A stretch of 23,143 bases of DNA from a virus: IMG/VR virus record IMGVR_UViG_3300047309_000205, positions 1-23,143 of that record. One strand, given 5' to 3'. Positions 3,389-11,945 of this stretch are shown here, piece after piece (the first letter of the stretch is position 1; every line of letters starts with the position of its first letter). A model generated the notes under the pieces. That model made no database searches. It was not told where the DNA came from and saw nothing but the letters and a program-made list of their open reading frames with translations. Made by a program: the position numbers and the translations under genes.

Positions 3389-3421
3389 GCAATACATAGC
3401 AACTGCGTTTGGTCTAGGCTG

Positions 3422-3691
3422 CTAGACCCCTGTCGAGACTGCCAGTAAGCTGATGCCGTCGGATTTCAGGTGTTGCAAGGCAAGAACTAACTTAGGCTCC
3501 AAAGGATCTTGGGCTCTGTGAAACAGGCACAACCCATAACTTACATTACGCCGCTGATCCGTGTAATGTAGGTCCCGTTGATAACAAGCAATGCTAGAGT
3601 AGGGCGTACCGATCAACCGCGTCCGTGCAAATAAATTTGTAATCTCTTTAGATCAGTGACTGTAACGACTCGGATGAAGCGTTTCTTTCAT
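3422..3691 (-). pseudogene. Small minus-strand reading frame interrupted by TGA (unknown)
   Basis: Reading leftward from the ATG at 3691-3689, the frame gives 12 residues (MKETLHPSRYSH), then TGA at 3655-3653, then 76 further open codons to a TAG at 3424-3422. The open part contains TNLFARTRLIGTPYSSIACY and ends SLLAVSTGV. Its composition looks protein-like, but I recognise no family. It is co-directional with and downstream of the hub genes. TGA serves as a normal terminal stop elsewhere in the window (for example at 7998-8000), so genome-wide TGA recoding is unlikely. A nonsense-mutated gene, a shorter gene starting at the TTG at 3616, or a chance ORF over a structured RNA are all possible. 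Confidence 0.3.
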
Positions 3692-3716
3692 AATATGTCT
3701 GTCAAGGCATATTATG
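3689..3716. other. Strong hairpin over the start of the minus-strand reading frame
   Basis: CATAATATGTC at 3689-3699 pairs with GGCATATTATG at 3706-3716 (11 bp, one G-T wobble, 6-nt loop). On the minus strand, the ATG of the interrupted reading frame lies in the 3' arm, so it would be hidden in the RNA. It is nearly symmetric and could equally fold in a plus-strand RNA. Confidence 0.55.
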
Positions 3717-3808
3717 ACTGATTGATCTGGATGAATACCACAGTCAAAAGCATACAGTCTTAAAAGCAATTAAGGTATCAACAAAATGCATGAGCGTAAG
3801 CGAAATGC

Positions 3809-3828
3809 AGATGTGCGTCAGCACATCT
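3809..3828. terminator. Hairpin, possible bidirectional terminator
   Basis: AGATGTGC / GCACATCT with loop GTCA is a perfect 8-bp stem, followed on the plus strand by only TTTAAAG and on the minus strand by GCATTT. It lies between convergent transcription units, where a terminator is expected, but the U tract is too short for a textbook rho-independent site. A second small stem-loop with a GTAA tetraloop (3787-3809, TGCAT...ATGCA) abuts it. Confidence 0.4.
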
Positions 3829-3874
3829 TTAAAGAATACTTAAAATAAAATAATTGTGTGTATAACTATGGCTT

Positions 3875-4093
3875 CTAAAAGAAGGGTAACCCTGACTTTT
3901 TAGTAGTTTCTATATTGTCTTCTACAATTTTAGCTACGATTTCACGTTCTGCCTTGCTTAGGTCCATGGCTTCGGTGTAGGTAAGACCGCCTCGCATATA
4001 CCAACAAAACTTTAACGCTTCTGTTTTTAAGGCCTTTGATTCTTTATCATAGCCATCAAGCATTGCTATGATAGCGTCGTTATCTAATGTCAA
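3875..4093 (-). CDS. Small helical protein downstream of the hub gene (gp51-like or tail-chaperone extension)
   Basis: A 72-aa reading frame, mostly helical, with the core FCWYMRGGLTYTEAMDLS followed by KAEREIVAKIVEDNIE and the end TTKKSGLPFF. It lies in the -1 frame relative to the upstream hub gene and overlaps its stop by 4 bases (TTGA). Its own start would be a TTG with no convincing ribosome binding site, but the -1 frame is open all the way back to the slippery heptamer at 4105-4111. It may therefore be made mainly as the C-terminal part of a 351-aa frameshift product (275 hub residues + R-R-R-L + this 72-aa part). By position (T4 order 26-51) it could be the counterpart of the hub assembly catalyst gp51; the homology is unproven. 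Confidence 0.7.
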   Translation of the reverse strand: MTLDNDAIIAMLDGYDKESKALKTEALKFCWYMRGGLTYTEAMDLSKAEREIVAKIVEDNIETTKKSGLPFF

Positions 4094-4929
4094 AAGCCTA
4101 CGCCGAAAAAACTTGAATAATTAAACTCAATGGCCATTTCGTAATTTTCGCCACATTCATTGCATTTTACCGCGTATGGTTTTATATTAGCTTCTTTTGC
4201 CAAATCTTCAACTTTGTCCTGCAGTTTCTTAATTATAGTAGACTGGGCATTTTGATAAAATTCCTTTATGTGCTCTGTGTTATCGACTTTAGTCCCATCT
4301 TCTGCTACAATGTAAGCCGTGCTTTTTGTTAATATGTCTGTTGTTATATCTGCCAAACGTTTCATCCTCTGGGCCAACGCAGCTACCTTTTCTTCGGTCG
4401 CTAAATCAGACTCATTTATAGACATAACCATACGTTGTTCTTCAAAACCCAGTGTATTAGATTCATTTGCCTGTTGATAAGGCTGCGGTTTCAGCATGAT
4501 TTTCAAATTATCCACATCTAATGGCTGTGTATAATCTGGGCATTTGACAGAATCAAGTGCCAATCTCAAGTCAATGCTATAGGTATTAGACTTTTGGCAA
4601 TGCGGGCAGTCAGAATCAAAGTCCATGTCATGTCCATAACTAGCGATTCTTATAGCTATTAGCAGGGCATCAATGTCAACATTGGGTGCTACCCATGCAT
4701 TTTTAACATTTGGGCAGCAACTTTGTATGGTCTCAACTAATCCAGCACCATTCATTAGGGCATCTGGGGTACGAAGCACAATCTCATCCTTAGTGGTCAT
4801 AGGGTAAACTGGTAATTCTCCAGTTATTGGTAAATCTAAGCTGCCTTCTGGCCAAAATTTACCCAGGCTGGGCAATTTAATATAGATTGATGGCTGTCTA
4901 AAATGTTTTGCAAGCGGGTTTGAACTCAT
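4090..4929 (-). CDS. 26: T4-type baseplate hub protein (gp26-like)
   Basis: A 279-aa protein whose N-terminus (IKLPSLGKFWPEGS, then ELPVYPMTTKDEIVLRTPDA) is characteristic of the T4 baseplate protein family seen in cyanophage gp26 homologues. It has a split zinc-ribbon-like pair: CPHC at 108-111 and CNEC at 256-259. A charged helical segment lies between about 165 and 250. It should act in tail hub assembly in the cytoplasm. The ATG is preceded by AGGAA and, about 30 nt upstream, by a minus-strand late promoter. It is divergent from the tape measure gene. The gene ends with a slippery T-TTT-TTC five codons before the stop. T4 gp26 is 208 aa, and distinguishing gp26 from gp51 type needs a profile search. 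Confidence 0.78.
   Translation of the reverse strand: MSSNPLAKHFRQPSIYIKLPSLGKFWPEGSLDLPITGELPVYPMTTKDEIVLRTPDALMNGAGLVETIQSCCPNVKNAWVAPNVDIDALLIAIRIASYGHDMDFDSDCPHCQKSNTYSIDLRLALDSVKCPDYTQPLDVDNLKIMLKPQPYQQANESNTLGFEEQRMVMSINESDLATEEKVAALAQRMKRLADITTDILTKSTAYIVAEDGTKVDNTEHIKEFYQNAQSTIIKKLQDKVEDLAKEANIKPYAVKCNECGENYEMAIEFNYSSFFGVGF
4105..4111 (-). promoter_or_regulatory. Candidate -1 ribosomal frameshift site T-TTT-TTC
   Basis: On the minus strand the heptamer TTTTTTC sits exactly in the X-XXY-YYZ register of the hub gene (codons TTT-TTC are F274-F275). After a -1 slip the ribosome reads CGG-CGT-AGG-CTT and then enters the downstream ORF without meeting a stop. An 8-bp hairpin (ATCATAGC/GCTATGAT, 4046-4072) follows after 32 nt, farther than the usual 5-9 nt stimulator distance. 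Confidence 0.65.
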
Positions 4930-4940
4930 GGAATTATTCC

Positions 4941-4948
4941 TATAAATA
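4941..4948 (+). promoter_or_regulatory. T4-type late promoter for the tape measure gene
   Basis: A perfect TATAAATA octamer. With transcription starting about 7 nt after the box, the leader to the ATG at 4982 is about 27 nt. It forms one arm of an inverted repeat (4942-4950 with 4957-4965) shared with the opposing minus-strand promoter. Confidence 0.8.
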
Positions 4949-4958
4949 ATTGATATAT

Positions 4959-4966
4959 TATTTATG
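4959..4966 (-). promoter_or_regulatory. T4-type late promoter for the minus-strand hub genes
   Basis: Reads CATAAATA on the minus strand, 29 nt before the hub gene start at 4929. It faces the plus-strand box at 4941-4948, and the two predicted start points fall within a few bases of each other (about 4952-4955), so occupancy is probably mutually exclusive. Confidence 0.7.
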
Positions 4967-4981
4967 ACTTGAAATCAACCC

Positions 4982-7528
4982 ATGGATCAAACTGAACTAA
5001 ACAAATTACTTGAAGAGCTAGGAAAAGCGGCCAAAAATTTTGGTACCGAATCGGAAGCATACCAAAAGTCTTTGAAGCGGTTGAACACTGCCACGCAGCA
5101 GATAATTAAAGATTTTGATGCTGCAAAAAAACTATCTGCGGATTACAATAAAGCTGTTCAAAATGCCAAGGCTGGATTAATCAGCAGCGAAGAAAAAAAT
5201 AGAACTTGGTCCAACCGGTTAAAGGAATCGATTAAGGTACTAAACGATAATATAGATGCATTGGAAGAAGAACGCCAGTCTTTGTTAAAAACTGGTAATC
5301 TTAGAGAGGCAACAGAAAAACTCAAACAAATTGAAGAGAAAAAATCTCTTGCTGCAGAGCAGGCCAAAAAAGCTGCGGTAGAAGAGTCAACAGCTGAACT
5401 TAAAAACTTTGGTAAGACCATTACTAATATAACTGTTGGAGCTGTTGGTGGGTTAGCTAGAAATTTAACTAGTAATGCAGGTGCAATAGAAACCGGTGGC
5501 GCTATAATGAACGCGGCAATAGATGGTGCCGCTGCCGCGGGTAGTTCTGCTGGAAAATCAATAGGTGCATTTGGTCAAGCAGCTATGCAGGGCGGCGGCA
5601 AATTGCGTACTGTTGGTATTGCCGCCACATTAGCTGGTGGCGCACTAGAAAGTCTTGCCGATAATGGTGCAAAAGCTGCTAAGTTTGCCGTTGAAATTTT
5701 AGGCAAACAACTTGGTCAATTAAGAGACGGGTTCCAAGCATTAAGTAAATCCGGTGCTGTTTTTGCTGATGGTATGACCGGTATGAAAAATGCGGCCGGT
5801 GAAGCAGGTTTAACGGTTCAGCAGTTTGGCAAAGTAGTTTCAGAAAATGCTAAAAGTTTGGGTGCAAGTGGCATGGGTATGACTGCCGCGGCAGAACGTA
5901 TGGCCAGAATTAAAGGAGACATAGACAAATCTGGTGTAGGAGTTCGTTTGCAAAACTTAGGTTATAGTTTTGAAGAACAAGCTGGTTTAGTTTCTGAAGT
6001 AATGGGAAATTTAAATCGCTTTGGTAAAGGTCGCAGCTTAAGTGATAAAGAAATAATGCAGGAGACAGAGAAGTATGCAAAAGACTTACGTTTACTAAGT
6101 GCGGTAAGCGGTGAAGAAGCCAAATCAAAAATGCAACAAGCACGTGATGCCGCAAACAATTTGGCATTCCAAAATAAACTAGCAGAGATGCCGGCAAAGC
6201 AAGCAGAAGAAATTCAGAGAGCGATGGCAGCCATGAGTCCAATGCAACAAAAAGCTTTTATGGAAATGCAGCTTTTTGGAACGGCGATAAGCAAAGAAAG
6301 TGCCATAATGATGTCAACTAATCGTGGATTTTCACAAAGCGTAAGTGAATTCAGCGATAAAGCCAACAAGGGTATACTAACACAGGAAGAAACTCTTAAG
6401 ATACAAGCAAACACTAAAGAATTAACACTCAAAGATAGAAAAAAGACAACAGAAATAGGATTAGCCGCCTCTGCTGGCAAGGGAGGGTTGGAAGGCTTAG
6501 CTGCTGGTATGAATCAAACTTTTGCAGAAGCCGCAAAGAATTTAGATCCTGAACAACTGGCAAAACAATTAGCAACATTAGGTAAAGCAGCGGAAACGCA
6601 GGATGATCTAACTAAAAAATTCTTGGCCACAGAAAAGGCATATCAAGATAACATGGTAGGCATGCAGCAAATGGCGATAAAACACATGGATACATATGTT
6701 TCGGCACTTAAAGGAATTAACGAAGCAATATCCAAACAATTGAATGATTCAGGTTCCATTACAAATTCGCTAATGAGTGGCATTGGTGAGGTAATAACAA
6801 CAGTTGTTGGAGCCATGATTCCAGGACTGTTGTCTAAAATACCCAGTATCTTTAATAAATCTGGACAAGGTGGGCAAGAGAGTTTAGGTCCAAGTGGTGG
6901 CGGGTCTAGTCCAGCGGGCAATGGAGGATCTGGTGGGCTGCGTCAAAATAATAAAGGTCAATGGATTACAGACAAAGGCAAATTCGCATCAAAAGCGCAG
7001 ATTGCAGAACACATGGCACAGTCCGGCGGAGGTAAAGGTCTTGCAGGAAGAATTGGTGGATTTTTAGGAAATTTAGGAAGTAGGGCTGCTGGATTAGCAG
7101 GGGGACTTGGAGCGACACTGGGAACCAGCGTAGGTGCAGTGGGAGCAGGTACATTGGCTAGCAGTGCATTAGCTGCAGGTGCAGCAGGATATGGTGCCGG
7201 AACCCTATTAAATGAATATACCCCAATACAAGATTGGCTAGCTTCAGGAATTGACAAAATTACAGGGATAGAAAGTAAAGGAAAATCCTTAACCGAACCC
7301 ACATTGGCACCAGCAACAAGTCTAAGTTCGAAAGCAACCGGTTTAGCACTAGCTGCGGGAAGTGATACATCTTCCGGAACCGTGCAAAAAACTTCCGAAA
7401 CAACAGCAAAACTGGCACAGGATCAACTGGACAGTGTACGTAGCGGCGTAGATTTAAACGCCCAAATACTAGCAGAGATAAAAAATAGTAATAGTATTAT
7501 GAAGCAAATGGCTGCTAATATGGCATAA
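4982..7528 (+). CDS. Tail tape-measure protein (gp29 counterpart)
   Basis: An 848-aa protein with the look of a tape measure. It has N-terminal heptad-rich coiled coils (about 1-140), a long Ala/Gly/Lys helical middle, a hydrophobic segment around 590-625 (ITNSLMSGIGEVITTVVGAM then IPGLL), a Gly/Ser-rich linker near 630-660, and a glycine/alanine-rich hydrophobic stretch at about 685-745 (GLAGGLGATLGTSVGAVGAG). Such proteins fill the tail tube, set its length and leave with the DNA. It is longer than T4 gp29 (590 aa). It begins a late transcript from the TATAAATA at 4941 and is divergent from the gp26-like hub gene, the position expected for a tape measure and its chaperones. The assignment is by composition and context, not catalytic motifs. 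Confidence 0.72.
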   Translation: MDQTELNKLLEELGKAAKNFGTESEAYQKSLKRLNTATQQIIKDFDAAKKLSADYNKAVQNAKAGLISSEEKNRTWSNRLKESIKVLNDNIDALEEERQSLLKTGNLREATEKLKQIEEKKSLAAEQAKKAAVEESTAELKNFGKTITNITVGAVGGLARNLTSNAGAIETGGAIMNAAIDGAAAAGSSAGKSIGAFGQAAMQGGGKLRTVGIAATLAGGALESLADNGAKAAKFAVEILGKQLGQLRDGFQALSKSGAVFADGMTGMKNAAGEAGLTVQQFGKVVSENAKSLGASGMGMTAAAERMARIKGDIDKSGVGVRLQNLGYSFEEQAGLVSEVMGNLNRFGKGRSLSDKEIMQETEKYAKDLRLLSAVSGEEAKSKMQQARDAANNLAFQNKLAEMPAKQAEEIQRAMAAMSPMQQKAFMEMQLFGTAISKESAIMMSTNRGFSQSVSEFSDKANKGILTQEETLKIQANTKELTLKDRKKTTEIGLAASAGKGGLEGLAAGMNQTFAEAAKNLDPEQLAKQLATLGKAAETQDDLTKKFLATEKAYQDNMVGMQQMAIKHMDTYVSALKGINEAISKQLNDSGSITNSLMSGIGEVITTVVGAMIPGLLSKIPSIFNKSGQGGQESLGPSGGGSSPAGNGGSGGLRQNNKGQWITDKGKFASKAQIAEHMAQSGGGKGLAGRIGGFLGNLGSRAAGLAGGLGATLGTSVGAVGAGTLASSALAAGAAGYGAGTLLNEYTPIQDWLASGIDKITGIESKGKSLTEPTLAPATSLSSKATGLALAAGSDTSSGTVQKTSETTAKLAQDQLDSVRSGVDLNAQILAEIKNSNSIMKQMAANMA

Positions 7529-11268: not shown

Positions 11269-11294
11269 TCTAACACTGTAAAGGAGTGCCAGCA

Positions 11295-11945
11295 ATGAAT
11301 ATTTATTATGTTTATGCATATCTAAGAAGTAAAGATTCTGCAACCGCCAAAGCAGGAACACCCTATTATATAGGTAAAGGGGTCAAAAATCGAGGTCAAT
11401 TGCAACATCGCAATATAAAATCCAAAAAAGGCGTTTGGACACCAAGTGAAAAATCTAGGATTGTTATATGTGCATCTGGATTGACTGAGCTTGGTGCCTT
11501 TGCTTTGGAACGTAGATTGATACGATGGTATGGAAGAAAAGACCTAAATACCGGTATTTTATGCAATAGAACTAATGGTGGCGATGGCGCAACAGGTATA
11601 ATTATATCAGAACGACAAAAAGATAGAATACGTGAAGGTAATGCAAGAAGAAAAGAGCGTGGCGAATATGGCCATTCGGAACAAGCAAGAAGAAACATAT
11701 CCCAGGCTAAAAAAGGCAAGAAGCTTGGTCCTATGTCAGAGCAACAAGCCAAGGCAATTAGTTTGGCTAGAAAAGGAAAACCACTAAGTGAATCACACAA
11801 ACAAAGTTTGCGTGGTCTTAATCGTAAACGTCGTGGACCGCACACACAGGCTACCAAGGACAAAATCAAGGCTACGAAACTTCGCCGGAAATTGTATTTG
11901 CTGGCACAAATAGCCGTACCAGCGCAGCCAGGCCCTGGATTATAG
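11295..11945 (+). CDS. GIY-YIG homing endonuclease with NUMOD3-like repeats
   Basis: 216 aa. The N-terminal GIY-YIG nuclease domain shows VYAYL (about 6-10), YYIGKG at 24-29, the catalytic-type Arg33 and Glu72 in FALERRLIRWYG, and NRTNGGDG at 91-98. It is followed by basic NUMOD3-type DNA-binding repeats (HSEQARRNISQAKKGKK, then MSEQQAKAISLARKGKP and LSESHKQSLRGLN). Start at ATG 11295, 8 nt after AAGGAG, rather than the GTG at 11286. The last 11 residues (IAVPAQPGPGL) copy the C-terminus of gp67, so this nuclease is fused in frame to a captured gp67 tail. It is free-standing, AT-richer than its neighbours, sits inside the head cluster and ends with a strong terminator: a mobile gene. Confidence 0.92.
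   Translation: MNIYYVYAYLRSKDSATAKAGTPYYIGKGVKNRGQLQHRNIKSKKGVWTPSEKSRIVICASGLTELGAFALERRLIRWYGRKDLNTGILCNRTNGGDGATGIIISERQKDRIREGNARRKERGEYGHSEQARRNISQAKKGKKLGPMSEQQAKAISLARKGKPLSESHKQSLRGLNRKRRGPHTQATKDKIKATKLRRKLYLLAQIAVPAQPGPGL
11907..11945 (+). repeat. Recoded tail repeat, copy 2 (end of the homing endonuclease)
   Basis: Encodes Q-I-A-V-P-A-Q-P-G-P-G-L-stop, the counterpart of the gp67 end at 11181-11219. Together the copies bracket the inserted gene. Confidence 0.8.

Follow-up and report, generated by a model that had tools for sequence, protein, structure and literature searches.

The window analysed here, that is, the whole stretch of 23,143 nucleotides of viral DNA (IMG/VR record IMGVR_UViG_3300047309_000205), carries on its minus strand a gp26-like gene of T4-like type followed by a small open reading frame (ORF), and the question raised by this locus is whether the two are translated as one fused protein by programmed -1 ribosomal frameshifting. 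Judged from comparative sequence analysis, the locus very probably makes a short tail assembly chaperone of 279 aa and a frameshifted long one of 351 aa, in the manner of lambda gpG and gpGT. The features concerned are the following.

4090-4929, minus strand: gp26-like gene (PF12322, phrog_150), predicted short tail assembly chaperone (TAC-N), 279 aa, assigned from family matches
4105-4111, minus strand: slippery heptamer T TTT TTC in X-XXY-YYZ register, assigned from sequence and conservation
3875-4111, minus strand: -1 frame after the slip, a C-terminal domain of 78 codons from the heptamer plus stop, predicted to be all-helical

The 279-aa protein matches family PF12322 (T4_baseplate) with 59.2 bits against a curated cut-off of 24.5, and also phrog_150, annotated as 'baseplate hub'. 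The 3' end of its gene reads, in frame, ...TCA AGT TTT TTC GGC GTA GGC TTT TGA, and the sequence agrees with the initial sequence-only reading that T-TTT-TTC at 4111-4105 (minus strand) lies in exact X-XXY-YYZ register, an arrangement far beyond chance in the light of the comparison given below. The further claims of that reading, that the -1 frame is open from the heptamer into a 72-aa ORF and that the fusion product has 351 aa, were reproduced as well: the open frame comprises 78 codons (4111-3878) with the stop at 3877-3875, and the predicted fusion consists of 275 residues up to the FF pair plus 76, as read on locus L001, whose DNA equals that of the window over the heptamer and the 100 nt after it. 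When 22 genes of the window were counted in all frames, the heptamer at 4111-4105 was the sole TTTTTTC. In-register X-XXY-YYZ heptamers of all kinds number 40 among the 7138 codon positions of these 22 genes; the presence of a heptamer by itself is therefore weak evidence, and proof of a signal rests on its conservation in relatives.

Relatives were taken from eight IMG/VR loci, from the best 80 of 590 in a further search and from seven named phages (Phosso, PA5oct, Atu_ph07, Hallingskeid, RaK2, 121Q and pEa_SNUABM_47; seven of the 62 phage records matched). The 92 non-identical genes scanned comprised 87 of the window gene's own family and five more distant ones, from S-SCSM1, Bakedbeans, phiAS4, Cygsa01 and AM101; the gene of Vibrio phage Bakedbeans, used as a query, found no relatives. 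An alignment of homologues had been proposed as a check on the sequence-only reading, and its outcome was clear: among the matches listed, TTTTTTC stands in register in all 87 family genes, 1 to 11 codons before the stop, so that the 0-frame tail after FF varies in these relatives over 1 to 11 codons, and the -1 product is complete, with 71-79 aa, in 83 of the 87. The four exceptions are L004, where the frame stops at 54, and L040, L057 and L059, which run off the contig. Conservation of the -1-frame protein starts at the heptamer itself, with the motif FFRxRLL. In the database records of PA5oct (L010) and RaK2 (L013) the -1 domain is unannotated downstream of the hub gene, and in those of 121Q and Phosso it appears as a hypothetical gene of its own, lying in the -1 frame.

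The FF pair is invariant in the protein alignment, and the heptamer could thus follow from conservation of the two phenylalanines, with the -1 ORF open by coincidence. This explanation is exceedingly improbable on codon choice. NNT TTT TTC was found in 72/72 representatives (roughly under 80% identity) as compared with 6.6% per gene expected from the phenylalanine and third-base usage of the same genes; since the sequences are related, such counts give no probability, yet the excess is still very large. The codon preceding FF varies among representatives (AGT, AAT, CAT, CGT, GCT) and T is always its last base. Elsewhere in these genes FF occurs 21 times, with each of the four codon combinations represented and a single instance of T TTT TTC; moreover, the -1 frame that is complete in 83/87 genes carries a conserved domain. 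The heptamer signal is thus conserved beyond the constraint on the protein in divergent relatives, as concluded from the 72/72 against 6.6% and from the stem tests described below.

The run of six T, present in 87/87 relatives, would also suit slippage of the RNA polymerase, by which mRNAs of altered length would be formed. Transcriptional slippage needs neither register, nor a fixed C, nor a downstream stem, and it usually takes a longer run; in contrast, exactly six T followed by C are seen in 71/71 representatives and the register for a tandem slip is kept in 87/87, so that this origin of the long product is very unlikely.

A more substantial alternative is that the 72-aa ORF is translated on its own, by reinitiation after the stop codon of the gp26-like gene, and that no fusion is formed. 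As the sequence-only reading had pointed out, the ORF has only a TTG start; this TTG (4093-4091) overlaps the TGA, and only 3 nt separate it from the end of the closest AGG upstream. In 45/87 relatives the earliest possible start downstream of the heptamer is likewise a TTG at this codon, the Phosso and 121Q records give the small ORF a gene of its own, and in phage Cygsa01, where TTTTTTC is absent, there is a TAATG overlap. However, this TTG is one spelling of the second leucine of FFRxRLL (45/87), and in 33/87 relatives no ATG, GTG or TTG occurs in the -1 frame from the upstream stop through the ninth codon past the first codon of the heptamer. In 17 of the 86 relatives long enough there is no start even through codon 25, although the conserved residues begin at the heptamer, and a Shine-Dalgarno-like AGGA, GGAG or GAGG precedes any such start in only 7/87. 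A separate start would furthermore leave unexplained both the NNT-TTT-TTC of 72/72 representatives and the stem 3-7 nt downstream in 81/84 sequences, and the TTG of the window sits inside that stem. Because 33/87 relatives lack a possible start codon at this place, a separate start is, on the sequences compared, not the general mode, and reinitiation in place of fusion is accordingly unlikely for the window gene.

In the RNA downstream of the heptamer, folding and covariation located the following elements.

4090-4099, minus strand: 5' arm of stem S1 (AGGCTTTTGA), 5 nt after the heptamer, assigned from folding and covariation
4030-4039, minus strand: 3' arm of stem S1 (TCAAAGGCCT), assigned from folding and covariation
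4045-4073, minus strand: inner hairpin S2 (pairing of 4073-4065 with 4053-4045) inside the loop of S1, only weakly conserved

Over the last 300 nt of the gene the mean folding energy of 60-nt windows, averaged over 86 sequences, is about -6 to -9 kcal/mol, and it drops to -11.2 directly after the heptamer; this drop is due to stem S1 (4099-4090 with 4039-4030). RNAalifold, run on all 84 aligned sequences, predicted no pair, probably because part of the rows depart from the common register; the named structure was then counted on the alignment and each sequence was tested singly. In the 12 column pairs of S1, 78.3% of the cells of the 84 aligned sequences are standard-paired, against 24.0-56.9% when the arms are slid. 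The cells changed on both sides number 87 (shuffled mean 33.1) and the covariation score is 0.263 (shuffled 0.143), values as high being reached by 0/500 shuffles in either case; counted by pairs instead of cells, two-sided changes are only mildly raised, with 9 against 7.0, a value reached by 38/500 shuffles. Columns 21/80, for example, hold G-C in 48 and A-U in 23 sequences, and columns 18/83 hold U-A in 47 and C-G in 20.

The coding constraint was controlled for by synonymous-codon shuffles of the -1 frame, in which the score was that of the best helix to begin 3-10 nt downstream of the heptamer. Its median over the 84 sequences was -17.4 kcal/mol as compared with -8.9 kcal/mol in the shuffles, and the best 5% of the shuffles was reached by 65/84 sequences, by 32/44 of those under 60% identity and by 13/16 of those under 50%. 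The stem starts 3-7 nt after U-UUU-UUC in 81/84 sequences, has 8 bp or more in 67/84 and encloses a loop of about 40-58 nt in 70/84. A stem of 9-11 bp persists despite a moved 3' arm in L062, L072 and L086 (28-nt loop), in L008 (32-nt loop) and in PA5oct (L010; 11-nt loop). In the window itself, the 95 nt after the heptamer fold with -23.8 kcal/mol (z -3.17), and 0/200 shuffles were as good. The remaining 19/84 sequences miss the best 5%, among them the group of 121Q, RaK2 and Erwinia phages (L012-L015), which is without a good stem, and in L012, L035 and L083 the stem is worse than in half of their own shuffles. A search of positions 3700-5200 against Rfam returned no match at the gathering score.

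The 8-bp hairpin that the sequence-only reading had placed 32 nt downstream of the heptamer does exist, within 4073-4045, but it is nested in the loop of S1 and is not the likely stimulator: 52.5% of S2 is paired, sliding its arms still gives up to 47.5%, and there is no gain in pair types. The likely stimulator is the outer stem S1, 5 nt downstream of the heptamer, which that reading had missed. Comparison of the relatives demonstrates that heptamer, register, -1 ORF and stem have been kept together at the sequence level, and from this we infer the slippage, its rate and the chaperone function. With conservation, codon choice and a covarying stem all pointing the same way, the frameshift reading and its analogy with G/GT, as first put forward from the sequence, are strongly supported.

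Structural models of both parts of the predicted fusion were confident. The AlphaFold2 model of the short form had a pLDDT of 86.9 and a pTM of 0.79, and that of the -1 domain, which is helical, a pLDDT of 88.3 and a pTM of 0.64. The top match of the short-form model among predicted viral proteins was a T4-like baseplate hub assembly protein (E 3.5e-25, TM 0.91). Foldseek on the PDB gave nothing at E <= 0.001 for the short form or the -1 domain, and the profile of the short form found no relative by sequence among solved structures, its best match (E 0.05) being a design construct. The HK97 chaperone 2ob9 aligned over 99 of 107 residues with Z 5.7, at rank 49 among tied unrelated rows. The label 'hub protein', adopted in the sequence-only reading, is probably the wrong name for what would be an assembly chaperone. 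A review of the T4 tail lists gp26 and gp51, in the part consulted, as hub assembly chaperones, and also cites there genetic work placing gp26 in the hub (PMC3004832).

The gp26-like gene adjoins the probable gene of the tape measure protein, which lies on the opposite strand.

4982-7528, plus strand: neighbouring divergent gene, probable tape measure protein, 848 aa, assigned from PHROG matches of relatives

Tape-measure PHROGs 4070, 4200 and 167 were matched by some of six relatives (best E 2.7e-06), and the 848-aa protein of the window itself gave no match to these three. A note in the RaK2 record and the product name in that of pEa_SNUABM_47 label the neighbour as tape measure. The divergent 848-aa neighbour is thus likely, by the sequences of its relatives, to be the tape measure protein. 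On the other side of the locus, the region of about 470 bases between the small ORF and a nuclease-like gene (3400-3870) contains one ORF of at least 60 aa (3422-3616, minus strand, TTG start) and an inverted repeat at 3688-3717 with 13-nt arms, and no tRNA. Elsewhere in the window, a homing-endonuclease-like gene at 11286-11945 sits between the portal and prohead protease genes; its protein matches the homing-endonuclease PHROG 314 (E 4.2e-07), with a NUMOD3 motif below cut-off.

The events at this locus can be pictured as follows. The gp26-like gene would be a tail assembly chaperone gene on which most ribosomes stop at the TGA, giving the short form of 279 aa. Some ribosomes, held up at U-UUU-UUC by the RNA stem 5 nt ahead, would slip back by one base and read on in the -1 frame, giving the 351-aa form with its extra helical domain. 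Both forms would have the tape measure protein as their target, as is the case for gpG and gpGT in lambda: by this analogy the short form would cover that protein, the product of the adjacent gene, and the scarcer long form would use its additional domain to bring in tail tube subunits.

The sequence-only reading had stated that T4 is not known to frameshift, and genes 26 and 51 indeed lack TTTTTTC; T4 is, however, not simply without the pair, since gp26 and gp51 both belong to PF12322. Among 13 named phages searched, T4, phiAS4 and AM101 have two PF12322 genes each, with no in-register TTTTTT heptamer in their gp26. The 10 others have one PF12322 gene each, and the heptamer is present in 9/10, the exception being Cygsa01 with one PF12322 gene and no TTTTTTC. 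The window record, a 23-kb fragment, contains one PF12322 copy. In Pseudomonas phage Cygsa01 (L101 2795-2982) the TAATG overlap joins the PF12322 gene to a small ORF, and reinitiation may have replaced frameshifting in this lineage.

The predicted fusion aligned end to end with gp51 (single-comparison P 3.3e-4, probability 38%), and the -1 domain gave a weak match to the gp51 C-terminus (single-comparison P 5.3e-4, probability 31%). HMMER with the window-type -1 domain did not list gp51 among the T4 ORFs; with the -1 domains of the cyanophage-like relatives of S-SCSM1 type, gp51 was the top of 1408 T4 ORFs (E 5e-05), and with a joint profile it was again the top one (E 0.014). The link between the -1 domains of window type and S-SCSM1 type is weak, with a best E of 0.0014 in a small database. 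In the S-SCSM1-type set, among the matches listed, an in-register T6 is found near the end in 79/79 genes and an open -1 frame of at least 40 aa in 74/79. A second, smaller set including Cygsa01 has T6 in 16/18 and T6 together with an open -1 frame in 15/18. Folding after the heptamer reaches the best 5% of synonymous shuffles in 35/86 sequences of both sets. By eye, several S-SCSM1-type relatives (among L135-L230) show a short hairpin, e.g. GATCCATATGGATC, about 10 nt after the heptamer. Synechococcus phage S-SCSM1 itself (L098 3175-3374) has TTTTTTC and a small gp51-like ORF in the +1 frame, which would reflect an indel, an error in the record or another kind of recoding; because 74/79 genes of its set have the ORF in -1, it was treated as an exception or record error.

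From these results, T4 gp26 and gp51 look like separate genes for the short and the long form. We lean slightly towards the view that the long-range covarying stem is a conserved, previously undescribed stimulator setting the short-to-long ratio in jumbo T4-like phages, and that T4 came to do without it by dividing the chaperone between genes 26 and 51.

As regards other T4-like phages, Vladimirov, Gautam and Davidson (2022, Virology 566:9-15) reportedly identified the tail assembly chaperone genes of this group and reportedly found that frameshifting is kept in several T4-like groups and that T4 uses genes 26 and 51. As far as passages citing that study go, its chaperones (Vladimirov et al. 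2022) resemble the window locus in occurring in a short and a long form and in having poly-T shift signals. The corresponding passages describe poly-T sequences as known shift signals in T4-like chaperone genes (PMC12846349) and, for some T4-like phages, a short gene plus a fused long gene instead of frameshifting (PMC10885494); no downstream RNA stem is mentioned in the passages on Vladimirov et al. 2022 in either paper. The covarying stem was not found in print in the literature searched, and may be described in Vladimirov et al. 2022. For the chaperone locus of Vandenendeviridae and Andersonviridae, a conserved poly-T motif with an open -1 frame is proposed by comparison in the part of the source consulted, the motif being GTTTTT as against TTTTTTC in the window (PMC12846349). 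Frameshifted chaperones of T4-like phages are thus already known and the window locus is a further, unannotated case, in which only the covarying stem may be new. It would provide a concrete recoding signal for jumbo and environmental T4-like phages whose records miss or split off the -1 domain.

In lambda, gpG and gpGT arise from a low-level -1 shift near the 3' end of the chaperone gene and both forms act on the tape measure protein, according to the relevant section of a 2016 review, which describes G-T frameshifting as widely conserved except in T4 (PMC5009743). The window locus resembles this system in having a putative -1 shift site near the 3' end of a predicted chaperone gene, with a predicted short and extended form. 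The lambda heptamer is GGGAAAG; unlike lambda, the window has TTTTTTC, a divergent tape measure gene and a long conserved stem after the heptamer. The likeness to T4 lies in gp26 and gp51, both of PF12322, and in the end-to-end alignment of gp51 with the predicted fusion, whereas genes 26 and 51 are separate and divergent, with TTTTTTC in neither. The comparison lends support to the idea that genes 26 and 51 of T4 together correspond, in split form, to a single frameshifted gene, an idea that bears on how the control of tail length in T4 relates to that in lambda.
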